A program made the translations under genes and the position numbers. A DNA stretch of 64,000 nt from Deltaproteobacteria bacterium (lineage in GTDB: Bacteria > Desulfobacterota > Deferrimicrobia > Deferrimicrobiales > Deferrimicrobiaceae), in assembly GCA_021815305.1 (NCBI GenBank), contig JAKAHC010000001.1:124001-188000 (forward strand). Reading direction: 5' to 3'. Positions 44,570 through 49,954 of this stretch are shown in pieces. Below the pieces are notes generated by a model. It had not been told where the DNA came from. It saw only the letters and a list, made by a program, of their open reading frames with translations, and ran no database searches. Position 1 is the stretch's first letter. Each line of letters begins with the position of its first letter.

Positions 44570-45967
44570 TCAGGAAGCCTTCTTCTTCTCTATGAAGCGC
44601 GATTTGAAGATCTCCCACCCCCGGAGAAGTTCCACCGCCCGGTCGAGTTGGGGATCCTTTCCGCTCTCCTTCAGGATCTCCGGCTTCCCGGAAGGCTCGT
44701 TCCCGGGTTTTTTCGGTTCCCCCGCCTTCCTGTCCTTTCCGGCGGGCGCAACGGTGTTATCGGCCTCCCCGTCGCCTCTCAGGTGCCGCTCCATGTCCTT
44801 TTCGCGGAGAACGGCCGGATGGCCTTCGGGGGTCTCGCGCCCGTCGCTCACGACGATGTCGGGCTCGATCCCTTTCGCCTGGATCGATCGCCCGTTGGGG
44901 GTGTAGTATCTCGCGGTCGTCAAGCGCAGCGCGGAGCCGTCTTCCAGGGGAAGGATCGTCTGCACGGACGCCTTTCCGAAGGTGCGCTGACCGATGATGA
45001 TCGCCCGGCCGTGGTCCTGCAGGGCGCCCGCGACGATCTCGGATGCGGAGGCGGACCCGGCGTTCACCAGCACCACGATGGGAAACCCGCTGTAGGTTCC
45101 CTCCTTGTGGGCGAAATATTTCGTCTTCTGCGCCTCCACGCGGCCATCGGTGTAGACGATGAGGCCCGAGTCGATGAATTCGTCCGCCACCTTGACCGCC
45201 TGGTCCAGGAGGCCGCCCGGGTTGTTCCTCAAGTCGAGGATGAGGCCCCGGAGCCCGCCCTTCTCCTTGACGAACCCCTGCAGGGCGCGCGCCATCTCCT
45301 GGTGGGAGTCCTGCTGGAACTGCGTGAGCCGGATGTACCCGATCCCGTCATCCATCGACCTGGATTTCACGCTTTTGATCTTGATGATGTCGCGGGTGAT
45401 CGTGTACGACTTGGGTTCCGGCAAGGATTTCCTGGAAATCGTGATCGTCACCTTGCTGCCGGGCTCACCCCGAAGCCGCTTCACAGCGTCCATCACGTTC
45501 ATGTTCTTGGTGGATTCGTTCTCGATCCGGATGATCTTGTCGCCCGCCTGCAACCCGGCCCGCGCCGCCGGGGTGTCCTCGATGGGGGAGATGACCGTGA
45601 GGTACCCGTCCTTCATCCCGATCTCGATTCCCAGGCCCCCGAAAGTCCCCTTGGTCTCCACCTCGACCTGCTTGAGCATTTCCGGGGTGAGGTAACTGCT
45701 GTGGGGGTCGAGCGTCTGCACCATTCCGTTGATCGCCCCCTGGATCAGGTTGTCGACGTTCACCGGCTCGACGTAACTGCTCTGGATGAGCGAGAGGACG
45801 TCCCCGAAGAGTTTCAGTTGGCTGTAGGTGACGTTGGCCTGGGCCGAATCCCGGTACGTGCCGAAGTCCCCGACGACGAACCCCAGGGCGAAGACCGCTA
45901 CGATGGCAAGCGTGCCGATCCACTTCTTCCCCCGGGATCTCCGAGGTTCGGTTCCACTGTGCTCCAT
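44570..45967 (-). CDS. ctpA: C-terminal processing peptidase, S41 family
   Basis: 465 aa. The N-terminal anchor (WIGTLAIVAVFALGFVVGDFG) leads to a PDZ domain (GGLGIEIGMKDGYLTVISP, about 108-185) and the S41 core with nucleophile Ser in GSASASEIVAGAL and catalytic Lys in FGKASVQ. A Lys/Glu/Pro tail follows. The partner EnvC gene lies directly upstream, so it likely trims cell-wall or division proteins. Confidence 0.96.
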   Translation of the reverse strand: MEHSGTEPRRSRGKKWIGTLAIVAVFALGFVVGDFGTYRDSAQANVTYSQLKLFGDVLSLIQSSYVEPVNVDNLIQGAINGMVQTLDPHSSYLTPEMLKQVEVETKGTFGGLGIEIGMKDGYLTVISPIEDTPAARAGLQAGDKIIRIENESTKNMNVMDAVKRLRGEPGSKVTITISRKSLPEPKSYTITRDIIKIKSVKSRSMDDGIGYIRLTQFQQDSHQEMARALQGFVKEKGGLRGLILDLRNNPGGLLDQAVKVADEFIDSGLIVYTDGRVEAQKTKYFAHKEGTYSGFPIVVLVNAGSASASEIVAGALQDHGRAIIIGQRTFGKASVQTILPLEDGSALRLTTARYYTPNGRSIQAKGIEPDIVVSDGRETPEGHPAVLREKDMERHLRGDGEADNTVAPAGKDRKAGEPKKPGNEPSGKPEILKESGKDPQLDRAVELLRGWEIFKSRFIEKKKAS

Positions 45968-45980
45968 GCCGCTTGGCTCC

Positions 45981-47195
45981 TTACCGATTGAGAGGAATCA
46001 CGGACGTCGGGTCGATGGCGGTGCCCCCGGCCCGCAACTCCAAGTATAACACCGATTTCCCGGACGGCGATTCCGGCAATCGTCCAACCACGTCCCCCCT
46101 GCCCACGGTTTCCCCCTGCTTCACGAGGAACGACGAGAGTTTCCCGTACACGGAAAAAAGCCCGCTGCCGTGCTGGAGGATCAGGACGTTCCCGAATCCG
46201 GAGACGCTCCCCTCGAAGGCGACCTCTCCCCTGCCCACCGCCTTCACCGTTGCGCCCGAGGGCGCATCGATCTCCACGCCCCGGTTTTCGATCGTCACAT
46301 CGAATGTCGCGTCGTGCTGCTTCCCGAAGGGTGTGATCACCTTTCCGGCCAGCGGGGGGGAGAGCCCGCCGCGAAGGGATGCGAACCGTTGTCGGACCTC
46401 CGGACGCCCGCGGGCCGCCGTCCCGTGCCCGGCCCCCTCCTCCGCCTTCCGCTCCCTCTCCCTCACCAGGCGCTCCACGCGGGAGACCAGCCGCTCCATG
46501 CGCGCGATCCTGGCGCGCAGCGCTTTCAGCTCCTTCGACTTCTTCTCCTTCTCCCGCCCGATGGCGGAGAGCGCCTTCCGTTCCTCCTCCCGCCGGGAAA
46601 GGAGGGTCTGACCCACCCGTTTTTCCCGGGTCATCTTCCGCTCGGAAGAGCGGACCTGCCGTTCGATCCCGGAGAGTTCTCCCTCCTTCCGCTCCCGCTC
46701 GCGGGCAAGGCGGGAGACGTCGTCGAGGTCGGCCCCGAGGTACACCCGCATGAAATACCGGTGCCTCTCCCCCCCGGTTTCGATCGGGATACCGGTCTCC
46801 TCGAGGCGGTGCGCCGCAAACGCGGCGACCGACGCCTTGCGGAGAACGTCCTGCGCACGCCCGTGGGCATGCGCGAGGGCCTCGACCTCCTTTTCCGTCC
46901 GACCCAGCTTCCCGTTCAGGGCGTCGAGCTTCCGGTCGATGCCCGCAATGAGGTTCCGCTGTTTTTTGAGCTTCGTCTGCAGCTCGCCGACGCGTTTTTT
47001 CGTCATCTTCTCCTTCCTCAGCGCCTCGGTAAGATCCGCGGCCGCCTTCTCTTCGCGTCGCTTCATCTCGAGAAGCCGTACCTTCTCCCGCCTGAGCTCC
47101 GGCGCGTCGTCCCTTCCGGACGAAGGCAGGGGCCATGAGGCCGCGAGAAGGGCCATCGCGATCAGGAAGACGGCCGGGAATCCCTTTCTCCGCAT
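45981..47195 (-). CDS. envC: EnvC-like murein hydrolase activator
   Basis: 404 aa. A signal peptide (about 1-26) is followed by a long coiled-coil (about 30-250) and a C-terminal LytM domain. The zinc ligands of active LytM enzymes are absent: the usual HxxxD start reads NRGVEID and the HxH segment reads LYLEL, as in EnvC, which activates amidases instead of cutting. The ATG shares one base with the ftsX stop, and AAGGAAG precedes it. Confidence 0.93.
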   Translation of the reverse strand: MRRKGFPAVFLIAMALLAASWPLPSSGRDDAPELRREKVRLLEMKRREEKAAADLTEALRKEKMTKKRVGELQTKLKKQRNLIAGIDRKLDALNGKLGRTEKEVEALAHAHGRAQDVLRKASVAAFAAHRLEETGIPIETGGERHRYFMRVYLGADLDDVSRLARERERKEGELSGIERQVRSSERKMTREKRVGQTLLSRREEERKALSAIGREKEKKSKELKALRARIARMERLVSRVERLVRERERKAEEGAGHGTAARGRPEVRQRFASLRGGLSPPLAGKVITPFGKQHDATFDVTIENRGVEIDAPSGATVKAVGRGEVAFEGSVSGFGNVLILQHGSGLFSVYGKLSSFLVKQGETVGRGDVVGRLPESPSGKSVLYLELRAGGTAIDPTSVIPLNR

Positions 47196-48085
47196 CACTT
47201 CCTTCCGGAGCGGGCCGCCCTCCAGCCGAGGAGGGACGTAGACGCGGCCAACAGGGCCGCGCAGAGGGGGAAGACGGATGCGGTGACCGCGGTCGCAGGA
47301 AGCAGGAGGTCTTCCGGAGGTCCGATGAAGGACCCGAGGACATGGAACCGCTGCAGCAGGAAGAACAGCGCGGCGCCCGCTCCCGCGATCCCCGCGGCGG
47401 AGAGGAACAGCCCCGCGAACCAGGCACCGGCGGCGCGGGACGCCGCCATCCGGGCGGGAGAAACCCCCCGCTCCGCGAGGAATGCGAAATCCTTTTCCAT
47501 GGCGATCGCGCGCGCGCGTTCCTGGTGCCAGCAAACCAGGAGGAACGCGGCGAAGAAAGCCCCGAACACGCACCAGGACAGCGCGTCCGCGAAGGCCGCC
47601 GACCGGAGGATCCCCGGGAAAGAGTCCTCCCCGGACAACACCTTGTCGACGGAAGGCACGTTCCGAAGCGCGGAGACGACCAGGTTCACGTCCCCCGCGG
47701 TCAGGTGGTCGTATCGGAACCGGACCTCGATGTACCCGGGAAGCGGGTTCCCCCCCGTGGTACGGATCGATTCGAGGCCGGGATATGCCTCGAGAAATTC
47801 CTTCCACGCCGCCTCCGGATCCCTGAAGACCGCGGAGGAAACGGGCGGCATCGCGGCGACTTTCCGCGCGAGGCCTTCGGCCTCCCCTTGGGAGACGGAC
47901 GCCCTGAGCAGCGCCGTCACGGAATAACGGGACGCGAGGAACCGCCGCGCACCACCCGACAGGAGCAGGAGGAGGAAGGCGAACCCAAGGAGCGTGTAGA
48001 AGACGAAGCGCGTGAGGCTCGAAACCGCCATGGAGCGGCCCTTCATGCGCCAATCGATCCAGTACAGGGAAACCTTCCCGTTCAT
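47195..48085 (-). CDS. ftsX: FtsX-like permease of the FtsEX complex
   Basis: 296 aa with the FtsX topology: TM1 (about 28-46), a large periplasmic loop of about 120 residues (PPVSSAVFRDPEAAWKEFLEAYPGLESI, LPGYIEVRF, VDKVLSGEDSF), then three more helices (about 170-290). In the family this loop recruits EnvC, whose gene is next. Its ATG overlaps the FtsE-like stop. It looks complete although its ATPase partner is degenerate. Confidence 0.92.
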   Translation of the reverse strand: MNGKVSLYWIDWRMKGRSMAVSSLTRFVFYTLLGFAFLLLLLSGGARRFLASRYSVTALLRASVSQGEAEGLARKVAAMPPVSSAVFRDPEAAWKEFLEAYPGLESIRTTGGNPLPGYIEVRFRYDHLTAGDVNLVVSALRNVPSVDKVLSGEDSFPGILRSAAFADALSWCVFGAFFAAFLLVCWHQERARAIAMEKDFAFLAERGVSPARMAASRAAGAWFAGLFLSAAGIAGAGAALFFLLQRFHVLGSFIGPPEDLLLPATAVTASVFPLCAALLAASTSLLGWRAARSGRK

Positions 48086-48825
48086 GCGGATCCTCCGTCG
48101 ACTCCCCGATCTTCCGCCCTTGGAGACACGGCGGGCGCGGCCCCGGATCCCTGCCGGGGAACCGGGAGCCGGAAGACGCGGAAAGGTCCCGAGGGAATCG
48201 CCTCCTCGGCGGCCGCGGCCCACCGCTCCGGAATCAGCCGCTCCGCAAGCACGATGGTGTTCCCTTCCCGGGCCAGCGCCCGGAACAGCCCCGCCAGTTT
48301 TTCCCGGTGCGGGGCTCCGGCCGCGGCGACCACGCCGTCGGCGAACAGGACTTTCGGCCCCCGGAGAAGCTCGGCGGCGAGGTAGGCCCGCGACCTCTCG
48401 GAAACGGACAGGGACGGCAGACTCCACTTTGCGCCGCCCGGAAGCCCCACCATCTCGAGAAGGGAGACCTCGCGGTCCTTGCGTTCCCTCCCGGAAATCC
48501 CGCCGCACGCCAGCGCGGAGCGGCGAAAGAGATCCCCAACGACAAGGCGATCCTCCTCTTCCTGCCGTTCCGGCACGTACCCGCAGGATGCGCGGAAAGC
48601 GCGGGCGGCCGCGCCACTCCCTCTGTACAGGGATTCCCCCGAGACGAGGACATCTCCCGCGTCCGGCTTCCGTTCCCCCCGCAGGATCCCGAGAAGCAGC
48701 GACTTCCCGGAAGACGGGGGCCCCACGACGACCGACACCGCGCCGCTTTCGAAGGAGAAGTCGAGGCCGTCCCAAAGGGTCTCCCCGCGGCAGACCACCC
48801 CGAGCCGGAACGCCTCGATCCTCAC
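48082..48825 (-). CDS. ftsE: FtsE-like ABC protein with degenerate ATPase motifs
   Basis: 247 aa in the ftsE position of an ftsEX-envC operon. Walker A is acceptable (GPPSSGKS, 35-42). The remaining catalytic features are altered: the Q-loop area reads CGYVPERQEEED; the signature LSGGQ is LSVSE (139-143); Walker B is KVLFADG, with Gly 164 in place of the catalytic Glu; and the H-loop reads TIVLAERL, without His. It may bind ATP but should not hydrolyse it normally. There is no frameshift, and overlaps with both neighbours are intact, so it does not look like a decaying pseudogene. Start GTG 48825. Confidence 0.88.
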   Translation of the reverse strand: MRIEAFRLGVVCRGETLWDGLDFSFESGAVSVVVGPPSSGKSLLLGILRGERKPDAGDVLVSGESLYRGSGAAARAFRASCGYVPERQEEEDRLVVGDLFRRSALACGGISGRERKDREVSLLEMVGLPGGAKWSLPSLSVSERSRAYLAAELLRGPKVLFADGVVAAAGAPHREKLAGLFRALAREGNTIVLAERLIPERWAAAAEEAIPSGPFRVFRLPVPRQGSGAAPAVSPRAEDRGVDGGSA

Positions 48826-49115
48826 TCTCCGGACGTCCCTTCGTCGGGCGTGATTTCCCCCGCCATGAGCCGCCGGATCTCCTCGAGATGCTGCGCCTTC
48901 ATCCGCTCCTTCAGGACGGCATGCCAGTCCTTCTTGGAGAAGAGGTCCCCGTACGAACTGCGAACGCTGTCCAGGATCACCCCGCCCAGGAAGGCGTGGG
49001 TGATGATCTGCGGATTCTCCTTGCCCCCGTCCTCCGTCTGGATGTGGTAGACCTTCCCGCGGAAACGGATGTTGTGGTTGAACCCGGAGAGCATCTTCAT
49101 CTGCGATGAACCCAT
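48822..49115 (-). CDS. Small conserved-looking protein between murI and ftsE
   Basis: 97 aa, soluble and charged, with an N-terminal beta-like region (GFNHNIRFRGKVYHIQTEDGGKENPQIITHAFLGG) and a helical tail (DWHAVLKERMKAQHLEEIRRLMAGEI). I recall similar short proteins from deltaproteobacteria but no function. The ATG at 49115 has GGAAGGG upstream. Its stop overlaps the ftsE GTG, so it is translated with the division operon. Confidence 0.8.
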   Translation of the reverse strand: MGSSQMKMLSGFNHNIRFRGKVYHIQTEDGGKENPQIITHAFLGGVILDSVRSSYGDLFSKKDWHAVLKERMKAQHLEEIRRLMAGEITPDEGTSGE

Positions 49116-49159: not shown

Positions 49160-49954
49160 CTACAGTGCGATCCGTTCGGCGCAGGTCAGCGTCGCGCCGA
49201 AAAACCTCTGTCCCACGCGCGCAAACCGGTCCGGATCGTCGGTGACGAGAAACTCCACATCCCCCACCCCTCCCGCGCGGCGCACCCCCGTCTCGGAAAG
49301 AAGGACATCGACGACCCTGGCCGCCTCTTCCCCCGAGTCGATCAGGACCGTCCCGTCCCCGATGCAGTCGCGGATCGGGTCCTTGAGCACCGGGTAGTGG
49401 GTACACCCGAGGATCAGGGCGTCCGGGGGGTCCTCCCGGAACGGAGCGAGGTACTCGCCGATCACCTCCCGGGTGACCGGTTTGTCGATCCACCCCTCCT
49501 CCGCGAGGGATACCAGGAGCGGGCAGGCGATCGACCGGACCCGCGCGGAAGGGACCGCCGAACGCAACGCTTCCTCGTACGCCCCGGAACGCACCGTCCC
49601 CTGCGTCCCGACGACCCCGATGGTTTCCTTTCTCCGGAGAGCCGCGGCGCGACGGACGCAAGGATCGACCATCCCCACCACGGGAATCTTGTAGATCTTC
49701 CGCAGCACCGGGAGCGCAAGGGAGGATGCGGTGTTGCAGGCGACCACGAGGAGTTTGATGTCGCTCCTCCGGATCAGGTGGTTGGCGATCTCGATGGAAT
49801 ACCGGGTGACGGTGTCCGCGGATTTCCCGCCGTAGGGATGGCGCGCCGTGTCCCCGACATAGACGAACCGTTCCGAAGGGAGCGTCGCCACCAGCTCCCG
49901 CAACACGGTGAGCCCGCCCACCCCCGAATCGAACACTCCTACCGGATTTTCCAA
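49160..49954 (-). CDS. murI: Glutamate racemase
   Basis: 264 aa. It supplies D-glutamate for peptidoglycan. The two catalytic cysteines are visible (VVACNTASS, LGCTHYP) with FDSGVGGLTV at the N-terminus and DTARHPYG. The start is TTG 49954 with a weak AGGA site; no ATG lies in frame nearby. It heads the envelope operon. Confidence 0.96.
   Translation of the reverse strand: MENPVGVFDSGVGGLTVLRELVATLPSERFVYVGDTARHPYGGKSADTVTRYSIEIANHLIRRSDIKLLVVACNTASSLALPVLRKIYKIPVVGMVDPCVRRAAALRRKETIGVVGTQGTVRSGAYEEALRSAVPSARVRSIACPLLVSLAEEGWIDKPVTREVIGEYLAPFREDPPDALILGCTHYPVLKDPIRDCIGDGTVLIDSGEEAARVVDVLLSETGVRRAGGVGDVEFLVTDDPDRFARVGQRFFGATLTCAERIAL

Follow-up and report, generated by a model that had tools for sequence, protein, structure and literature searches.

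Can an FtsEX-EnvC system work with an FtsE from which the residues for ATP hydrolysis are missing? The question is raised by an operon in the window, the whole 64,000-nucleotide stretch of DNA that was analysed (contig JAKAHC010000001.1 of a Deltaproteobacteria bacterium), where the gene at the position of ftsE encodes an ABC-type protein with altered catalytic motifs. The purpose of ATP hydrolysis by FtsEX is itself debated, and has been placed in activation, in reset, or in the release of a block on septal wall synthesis. The window organism belongs to the Deferrimicrobia, a class of uncultured bacteria represented here by 26 genomes from two families, and the locus was compared across this class and with other families of the phylum.

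The operon and the identity of its ABC protein

The operon is compact and reads from right to left as murI, a RomY N-terminal-domain gene, ftsE, ftsX, envC and an S41 protease gene.

49160..49954, minus strand: murI (glutamate racemase), the upstream neighbour (PF01177, 2.4e-25), in synteny
48822..49100, minus strand: RomY N-terminal-domain protein (NF053858, 102.8 bits, cut-off 50)
48082..48825, minus strand: degenerate FtsE-type ABC ATPase-fold protein, 247 aa, GTG start (PF00005, 1.6e-15)
47195..48085, minus strand: FtsX, 296 aa (PF18075, 3e-9; PF02687 not recognised)
45981..47195, minus strand: EnvC-type amidase activator, with a coiled coil and a LytM domain from which the zinc ligands are missing (PF01551, 6.2e-21)
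44570..45967, minus strand: S41 carboxy-terminal processing protease (Ctp), downstream of envC (PF03572, 6.2e-61), synteny conserved

Three of the junctions are translational overlaps: GTGA between the RomY-domain gene and ftsE, ATGA between ftsE and ftsX, and TGATG between ftsX and envC. The gene at 48082-48825 adjoins ftsX and envC, and the order ftsE-ftsX-envC-ctp is common to the class and the outgroups. The product scores 58.3 bits against the ABC ATPase domain (PF00005, cut-off 25) and 51.1 bits against the FtsE equivalog TIGR02673, below the curated cut-off of 264.85. Its AlphaFold model has the ABC nucleotide-binding domain (NBD) fold with a mean pLDDT of 90.5, and Foldseek matched it to many NBDs in the PDB with a probability of 1.00, including the FtsE structures 8ymc (with 8ymc_A among the top matches), 8hd0 and 9iue. 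A search of a viral fold library returned mostly generic ABC proteins and nothing specific. Phylogenetically, the class proteins form one clade (100/100 support) apart from FtsE and from other NBDs, on a very long branch subject to long-branch effects. Orthology to FtsE thus rests on synteny and position rather than on the tree, as the branch is too long to place, and by this comparison of gene order the gene is taken to be the positional descendant of ftsE.

A relative of the neighbouring RomY-domain gene also precedes ftsE in two other families (G055 and G038), which suggests that a polarity-type regulator may be linked to FtsEX.

Motif state of FtsE and its partner proteins

Motifs were read from an alignment of 24 class FtsE proteins with 20 canonical FtsE proteins from other families of the phylum. 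The features of the window protein, with their conservation in the class, are as follows.

48700..48723, minus strand: Walker A, GPPSSGKS, kept; Lys41 24/24, Ser/Thr42 24/24
48562..48576, minus strand: Q-loop region (Y-V-P-E-R), Gln replaced by Glu86; 23 Glu and 1 Asp of 24
48388..48411, minus strand: signature region, LSVSERSR; Ser140 and Glu143 kept, second Gly replaced by Ser/Thr in 24/24
48328..48351, minus strand: Walker B, LFADG; Asp163 kept 24/24, catalytic Glu absent 24/24 (Gly164 here)
48235..48249, minus strand: switch region (L-A-E-R against canonical A-T-H), Thr-His replaced by Glu195-Arg196, invariant 24/24

Of the residues expected of an FtsE, the window protein therefore has the Walker A Lys and the Walker B Asp, and lacks the LSGGE signature, the Walker B Glu, the Q-loop Gln and the switch His. 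Across the class the Q-loop Gln, the switch His and the second signature Gly are each found in 0/24 proteins, and the first signature Gly in just one; the signature Leu-Ser and Glu are retained in all 24, giving the pattern L-S-x-S/T-E. The D-loop Asp is likewise absent (0/24) and is Gly throughout (Gly170 in the window protein). The site of the catalytic Glu is variable, with Met in 10 proteins, Gly in 6, Ser in 3, Thr in 2, Ala in 2 and Arg in 1. The A-loop Tyr is gone from class FtsE, and adenine binding may therefore be weak. Of 23 invariant columns, 10 fall within the 37 columns of the nucleotide site (hypergeometric p = 0.0009), a concentration which indicates that the site is altered yet not drifting freely.

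The partner of this protein has changed as well. The extracellular, EnvC-binding domain of FtsX is recognised (PF18075, 37.8 bits, cut-off 23.5), and the permease C-terminal domain PF02687 gave no match in the window FtsX and five class relatives (0/6); all four outgroup FtsX proteins carry it, one of them below the cut-off. One further feature lies in the cytoplasmic part.

47432..47503, minus strand: FtsX cytoplasmic loop at the coupling-helix site, AMEKDFAFLAERGVSPARMAASRA; canonical RREEIEIMRLVGA motif lost

In the alignment this cytoplasmic motif, of the type RREEIEIMRLVGAT, is near-invariant in 19 other families and replaced throughout the class, and the substitute loop is conserved in the family of the window organism (type DFxFLxxRGV). 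In Streptococcus pneumoniae the coupling helix was found by mutagenesis to contact FtsE (PMC7468199). Matched by eye, on position and residues, the near-invariant motif appears to correspond to that helix, and on this reading the ABC coupling element of class FtsX is eroded together with FtsE. An AlphaFold model of FtsX from two sequences reached a pLDDT of 53 and was not taken as evidence.

The periplasmic components are more conventional. EnvC has a coiled coil and a degenerate LytM domain, lies downstream of ftsX, and carries N-R-G-V-E and V-L-Y-L-E in place of the zinc-ligand motifs HxxxD and HxH; it scores 63.6 bits against NF008644, below the cut-off of 270. The window genome contains one FtsX extracellular domain (FtsX_ECD), one AMIN-Amidase_3 amidase and one FtsA over the respective cut-offs. 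No second degenerate-LytM activator of the NlpD type was seen among its M23 proteins, as the other three keep their catalytic motifs (HxxxD and HxH-type ligands).

The first-pass annotation had described an FtsE with altered signature, Walker B Glu, Q-loop and H-loop and a retained Walker A, in an intact reading frame with intact translational overlaps, beside an FtsX and an EnvC of normal appearance. The coordinates that it gave for the gene hold. The motif description extends to 24 orthologs in 24 genomes, and the open frame and the GTGA and ATGA junctions bear out the second point. EnvC indeed appears normal, its degenerate LytM domain being what is expected of an EnvC. The description of FtsX as normal does not stand, since both the coupling-helix motif and PF02687 are missing.

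Distribution, selection and origin of the loss

Orthologs were recovered from 24 of the 26 class genomes (22/24 in the family of the window organism, 2/2 in the sister family); the remaining two, whose completeness is 75% and 78%, gave neither an ortholog nor a recognisable FtsX. When a profile built from the class proteins was run against 395 genomes of the phylum, every match at E<=1e-30 came from the class. A pattern scan of genome contigs returned, among the matches listed, one true relative (L087, Deltaproteobacteria bacterium SKS1.bin8), the others being generic ABC proteins. FtsE proteins encoded next to FtsX in 20 other families of the phylum keep the catalytic Glu in 20/20 cases and the Q-loop Gln in 18/20, and for the most part the other motif residues as well. 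Because these families retain the Glu beside FtsX, the loss of the catalytic residues is placed by the alignment on the stem of the class.

No canonical FtsE scored over the cut-off in the window genome, and matches to TIGR02673 over the cut-off occur in 17/33 genomes of other families and 0/26 class genomes. Most of the genomes compared are drafts (G012 is a single contig), and the window genome is estimated to be 97% complete. A canonical FtsE hidden in the missing ~3% is unlikely, as none is present in any of the 26 class genomes, the single-contig genome included. The best NBDs of the window genome have canonical motifs and resemble MacB, LolD and importer subunits, and a sub-cut-off FtsE match in a relative (G021) proved to be a lone NBD of the MacB/LolD type. 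The changes are thus fixed in the clade (catalytic Glu 0/24), and two of the refuting conditions named in the first-pass annotation came out negative: a second canonical FtsE was not found in the genome, and intact motifs at this locus were seen in no relative within the class.

Purifying selection on class FtsE is evident. Values of dN/dS (Nei-Gojobori, within-family pairs) range from 0.18 to 0.45, similar to FtsX and EnvC and above MurI; some values for Ctp and for family f2 were saturated or misaligned and were left out. Canonical FtsE proteins share ~49% identity between the 20 families, compared with ~27% between the two families of the class, which implies that class FtsE evolves much faster than usual. 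Identity between class FtsE and the canonical FtsE of the phylum is ~23%.

As a separate observation on the phylum, 13 genomes gave no FtsX_ECD match (G028, G030, G031, G034, G037, G039, G045, G046, G048, G049, G052, G054 and G056), which may mean that several other families have no FtsEX or a very divergent one.

Function of a degenerate FtsEX

The first-pass annotation started from a model in which ATP hydrolysis by FtsE drives amidase activation. That model is dated, because work in E. coli has ATP binding as the step that drives EnvC activation and hydrolysis as the reset (PMC12505981). In the same system amidase activation is blocked by the FtsE variants E163Q and K41A (PMC12505981). The D162N variant, which is dead for hydrolysis, acts through FtsA to block the synthesis of septal peptidoglycan (PMC7343993). 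Where this block is avoided, an E. coli FtsEX that does not hydrolyse ATP still promotes the separation of cells, provided that NlpD is present (PMC7343993). No report of a natural FtsE without catalytic residues surfaced in the open-licence part of the literature. With the hydrolysis residues and the FtsX coupling motif gone and the periplasmic half kept, the class offers a natural test case. If the complex works in the absence of turnover, then recruitment, or the binding of nucleotide by itself, is enough to time the cutting of the septal wall; should it hydrolyse ATP, the ABC catalytic consensus has an alternative not known so far.

The explanation we favour, with moderate confidence and from sequence comparison, is that FtsEX in the class acts as a non-cycling scaffold which binds nucleotide and keeps EnvC at the divisome. 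On this view the hydrolytic machinery of FtsE and the ABC coupling element of FtsX disappeared on the class stem. The periplasmic half was kept, and consists of the FtsX extracellular domain, an EnvC whose LytM domain is degenerate, and one AMIN-Amidase_3 amidase. Class FtsE probably binds nucleotide and Mg, as the Walker A Lys and Ser/Thr, the Walker B Asp and the signature Ser are invariant, and it probably has no hydrolysis cycle; a power stroke is not expected because the catalytic residues and the FtsX coupling motif are both lost. The protein would then be a clamp, either static or in slow exchange, which brings FtsX together as a dimer and keeps EnvC where the cell divides. With such a clamp, amidase activation would be timed by recruitment or by another factor and not by ATP turnover, and the switch for septal wall cutting in the class probably differs from the textbook one. 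The earlier suggestion of a non-hydrolysing, ATP-binding or scaffold FtsE accordingly survives as the most likely reading, the changes being fixed and without a replacement, and is amended in that FtsX is not normal. Against a scaffold stand the failure of amidase activation in E. coli E163Q and K41A and the D162N block, as FtsA, through which that block acts, is present in the window genome.

The residues that replaced the canonical ones complicate this picture. Glu86, Glu195 and Arg196 are invariant or nearly so, which could mean that the site is re-wired rather than dead. A re-wired ATPase would hydrolyse ATP with Glu86, Glu195-Arg196 and Ser142 taking over from the canonical Glu, Gln and His, and the (near-)invariance of these replacements across 24 sequences from two families at ~27% identity speaks for it, as does the Glu-Arg fixed at the switch, which is unexpected in a dead, drifting site. 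Such an enzyme is nonetheless unlikely, given that the position of the catalytic Glu drifts, that the D-loop Asp and the signature glycines are lost, and that FtsX no longer has the coupling-helix motif through which a stroke would be used. A broader form of the idea, to which we give a small but real chance, is an FtsEX that does its work in division throughout the class without canonical hydrolysis, its active site rebuilt around the (near-)invariant Q-loop Glu and the switch Glu-Arg together with the new FtsX loop, and serving either a new catalysis or a nucleotide-sensing clamp that never cycles. At the opposite end, the protein might bind no nucleotide at all and serve as a pseudo-ABC structural adaptor between FtsX and the Z-ring. 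The fast evolution of the protein would fit an adaptor of this kind, as would the missing A-loop Tyr, Q-loop Gln, switch His and D-loop Asp. It is made improbable by the invariance of the Gly-Lys-Ser/Thr of Walker A, the Asp of Walker B and the Ser of the signature, together with the enrichment of invariant columns at the nucleotide site.

Hydrolysis could also be supplied from outside the operon if FtsX had a canonical NBD of the LolD/MacB type as its partner, either acting alone or joined to the degenerate FtsE in a heterodimer. Many canonical ABC NBDs are present in the window genome, and heterodimers with a degenerate site exist in other ABC systems (PMC12038006). Such a mixed complex is very doubtful, as there is no second FtsX_ECD locus in the window genome, the eight best canonical NBDs examined are encoded elsewhere, and the FtsX coupling-helix motif, the docking point of canonical NBDs, is lost. 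The simultaneous loss of several catalytic residues might finally suggest ongoing pseudogenisation or a fault of assembly. The frame is open with its translational overlaps in place, dN/dS is well below 1 and the new residues are invariant; the recurrence of open frames under purifying selection in 24 genomes rules out a pseudogene or sequencing error, and the probability left to this explanation is negligible.

Returning to the nucleotide-binding, non-cycling scaffold, comparison with known systems shows where the class departs from them. Canonical FtsEX-EnvC (PDB 8hd0, 8i6r, 8ymc) shares the ftsE-ftsX-envC order, the NBD fold (TM-score ~0.7), the Walker A motif and Walker B Asp, the adjacent FtsX_ECD and an EnvC with degenerate LytM. 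Class FtsE differs from its canonical counterpart in having no catalytic Glu, Q-loop Gln, switch His, D-loop Asp, LSGGE glycines or A-loop Tyr, and class FtsX in having no coupling-helix motif or PF02687. The E. coli variants D162N and E163Q are comparable as hydrolysis-deficient forms of FtsEX, a state which in the class is predicted; they were made in the laboratory, in systems that are canonical in other respects, and show defects of division or separation, whereas the loss in the class is natural, fixed and accompanied by a changed FtsX. The ABC transporters BmrCD, PatAB, MsRv1273c/72c and TAP, which have a degenerate nucleotide-binding site, have likewise lost catalytic residues, presumably with ATP binding retained. 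These are heterodimers with one intact site, unlike the class, where the one NBD gene would yield a homodimer in which both sites are degenerate.

Partial erosion of FtsE was also observed in two other families, f9 (L080, G032) and f20 (L082, G043), in which the Q-loop Gln is replaced by Pro or Glu and the signature reads LSAGE or LCAGE, with the switch His replaced by Gln in G032. In contrast to the class, these proteins keep the catalytic Glu, and most of the FtsX coupling motif is kept beside them.
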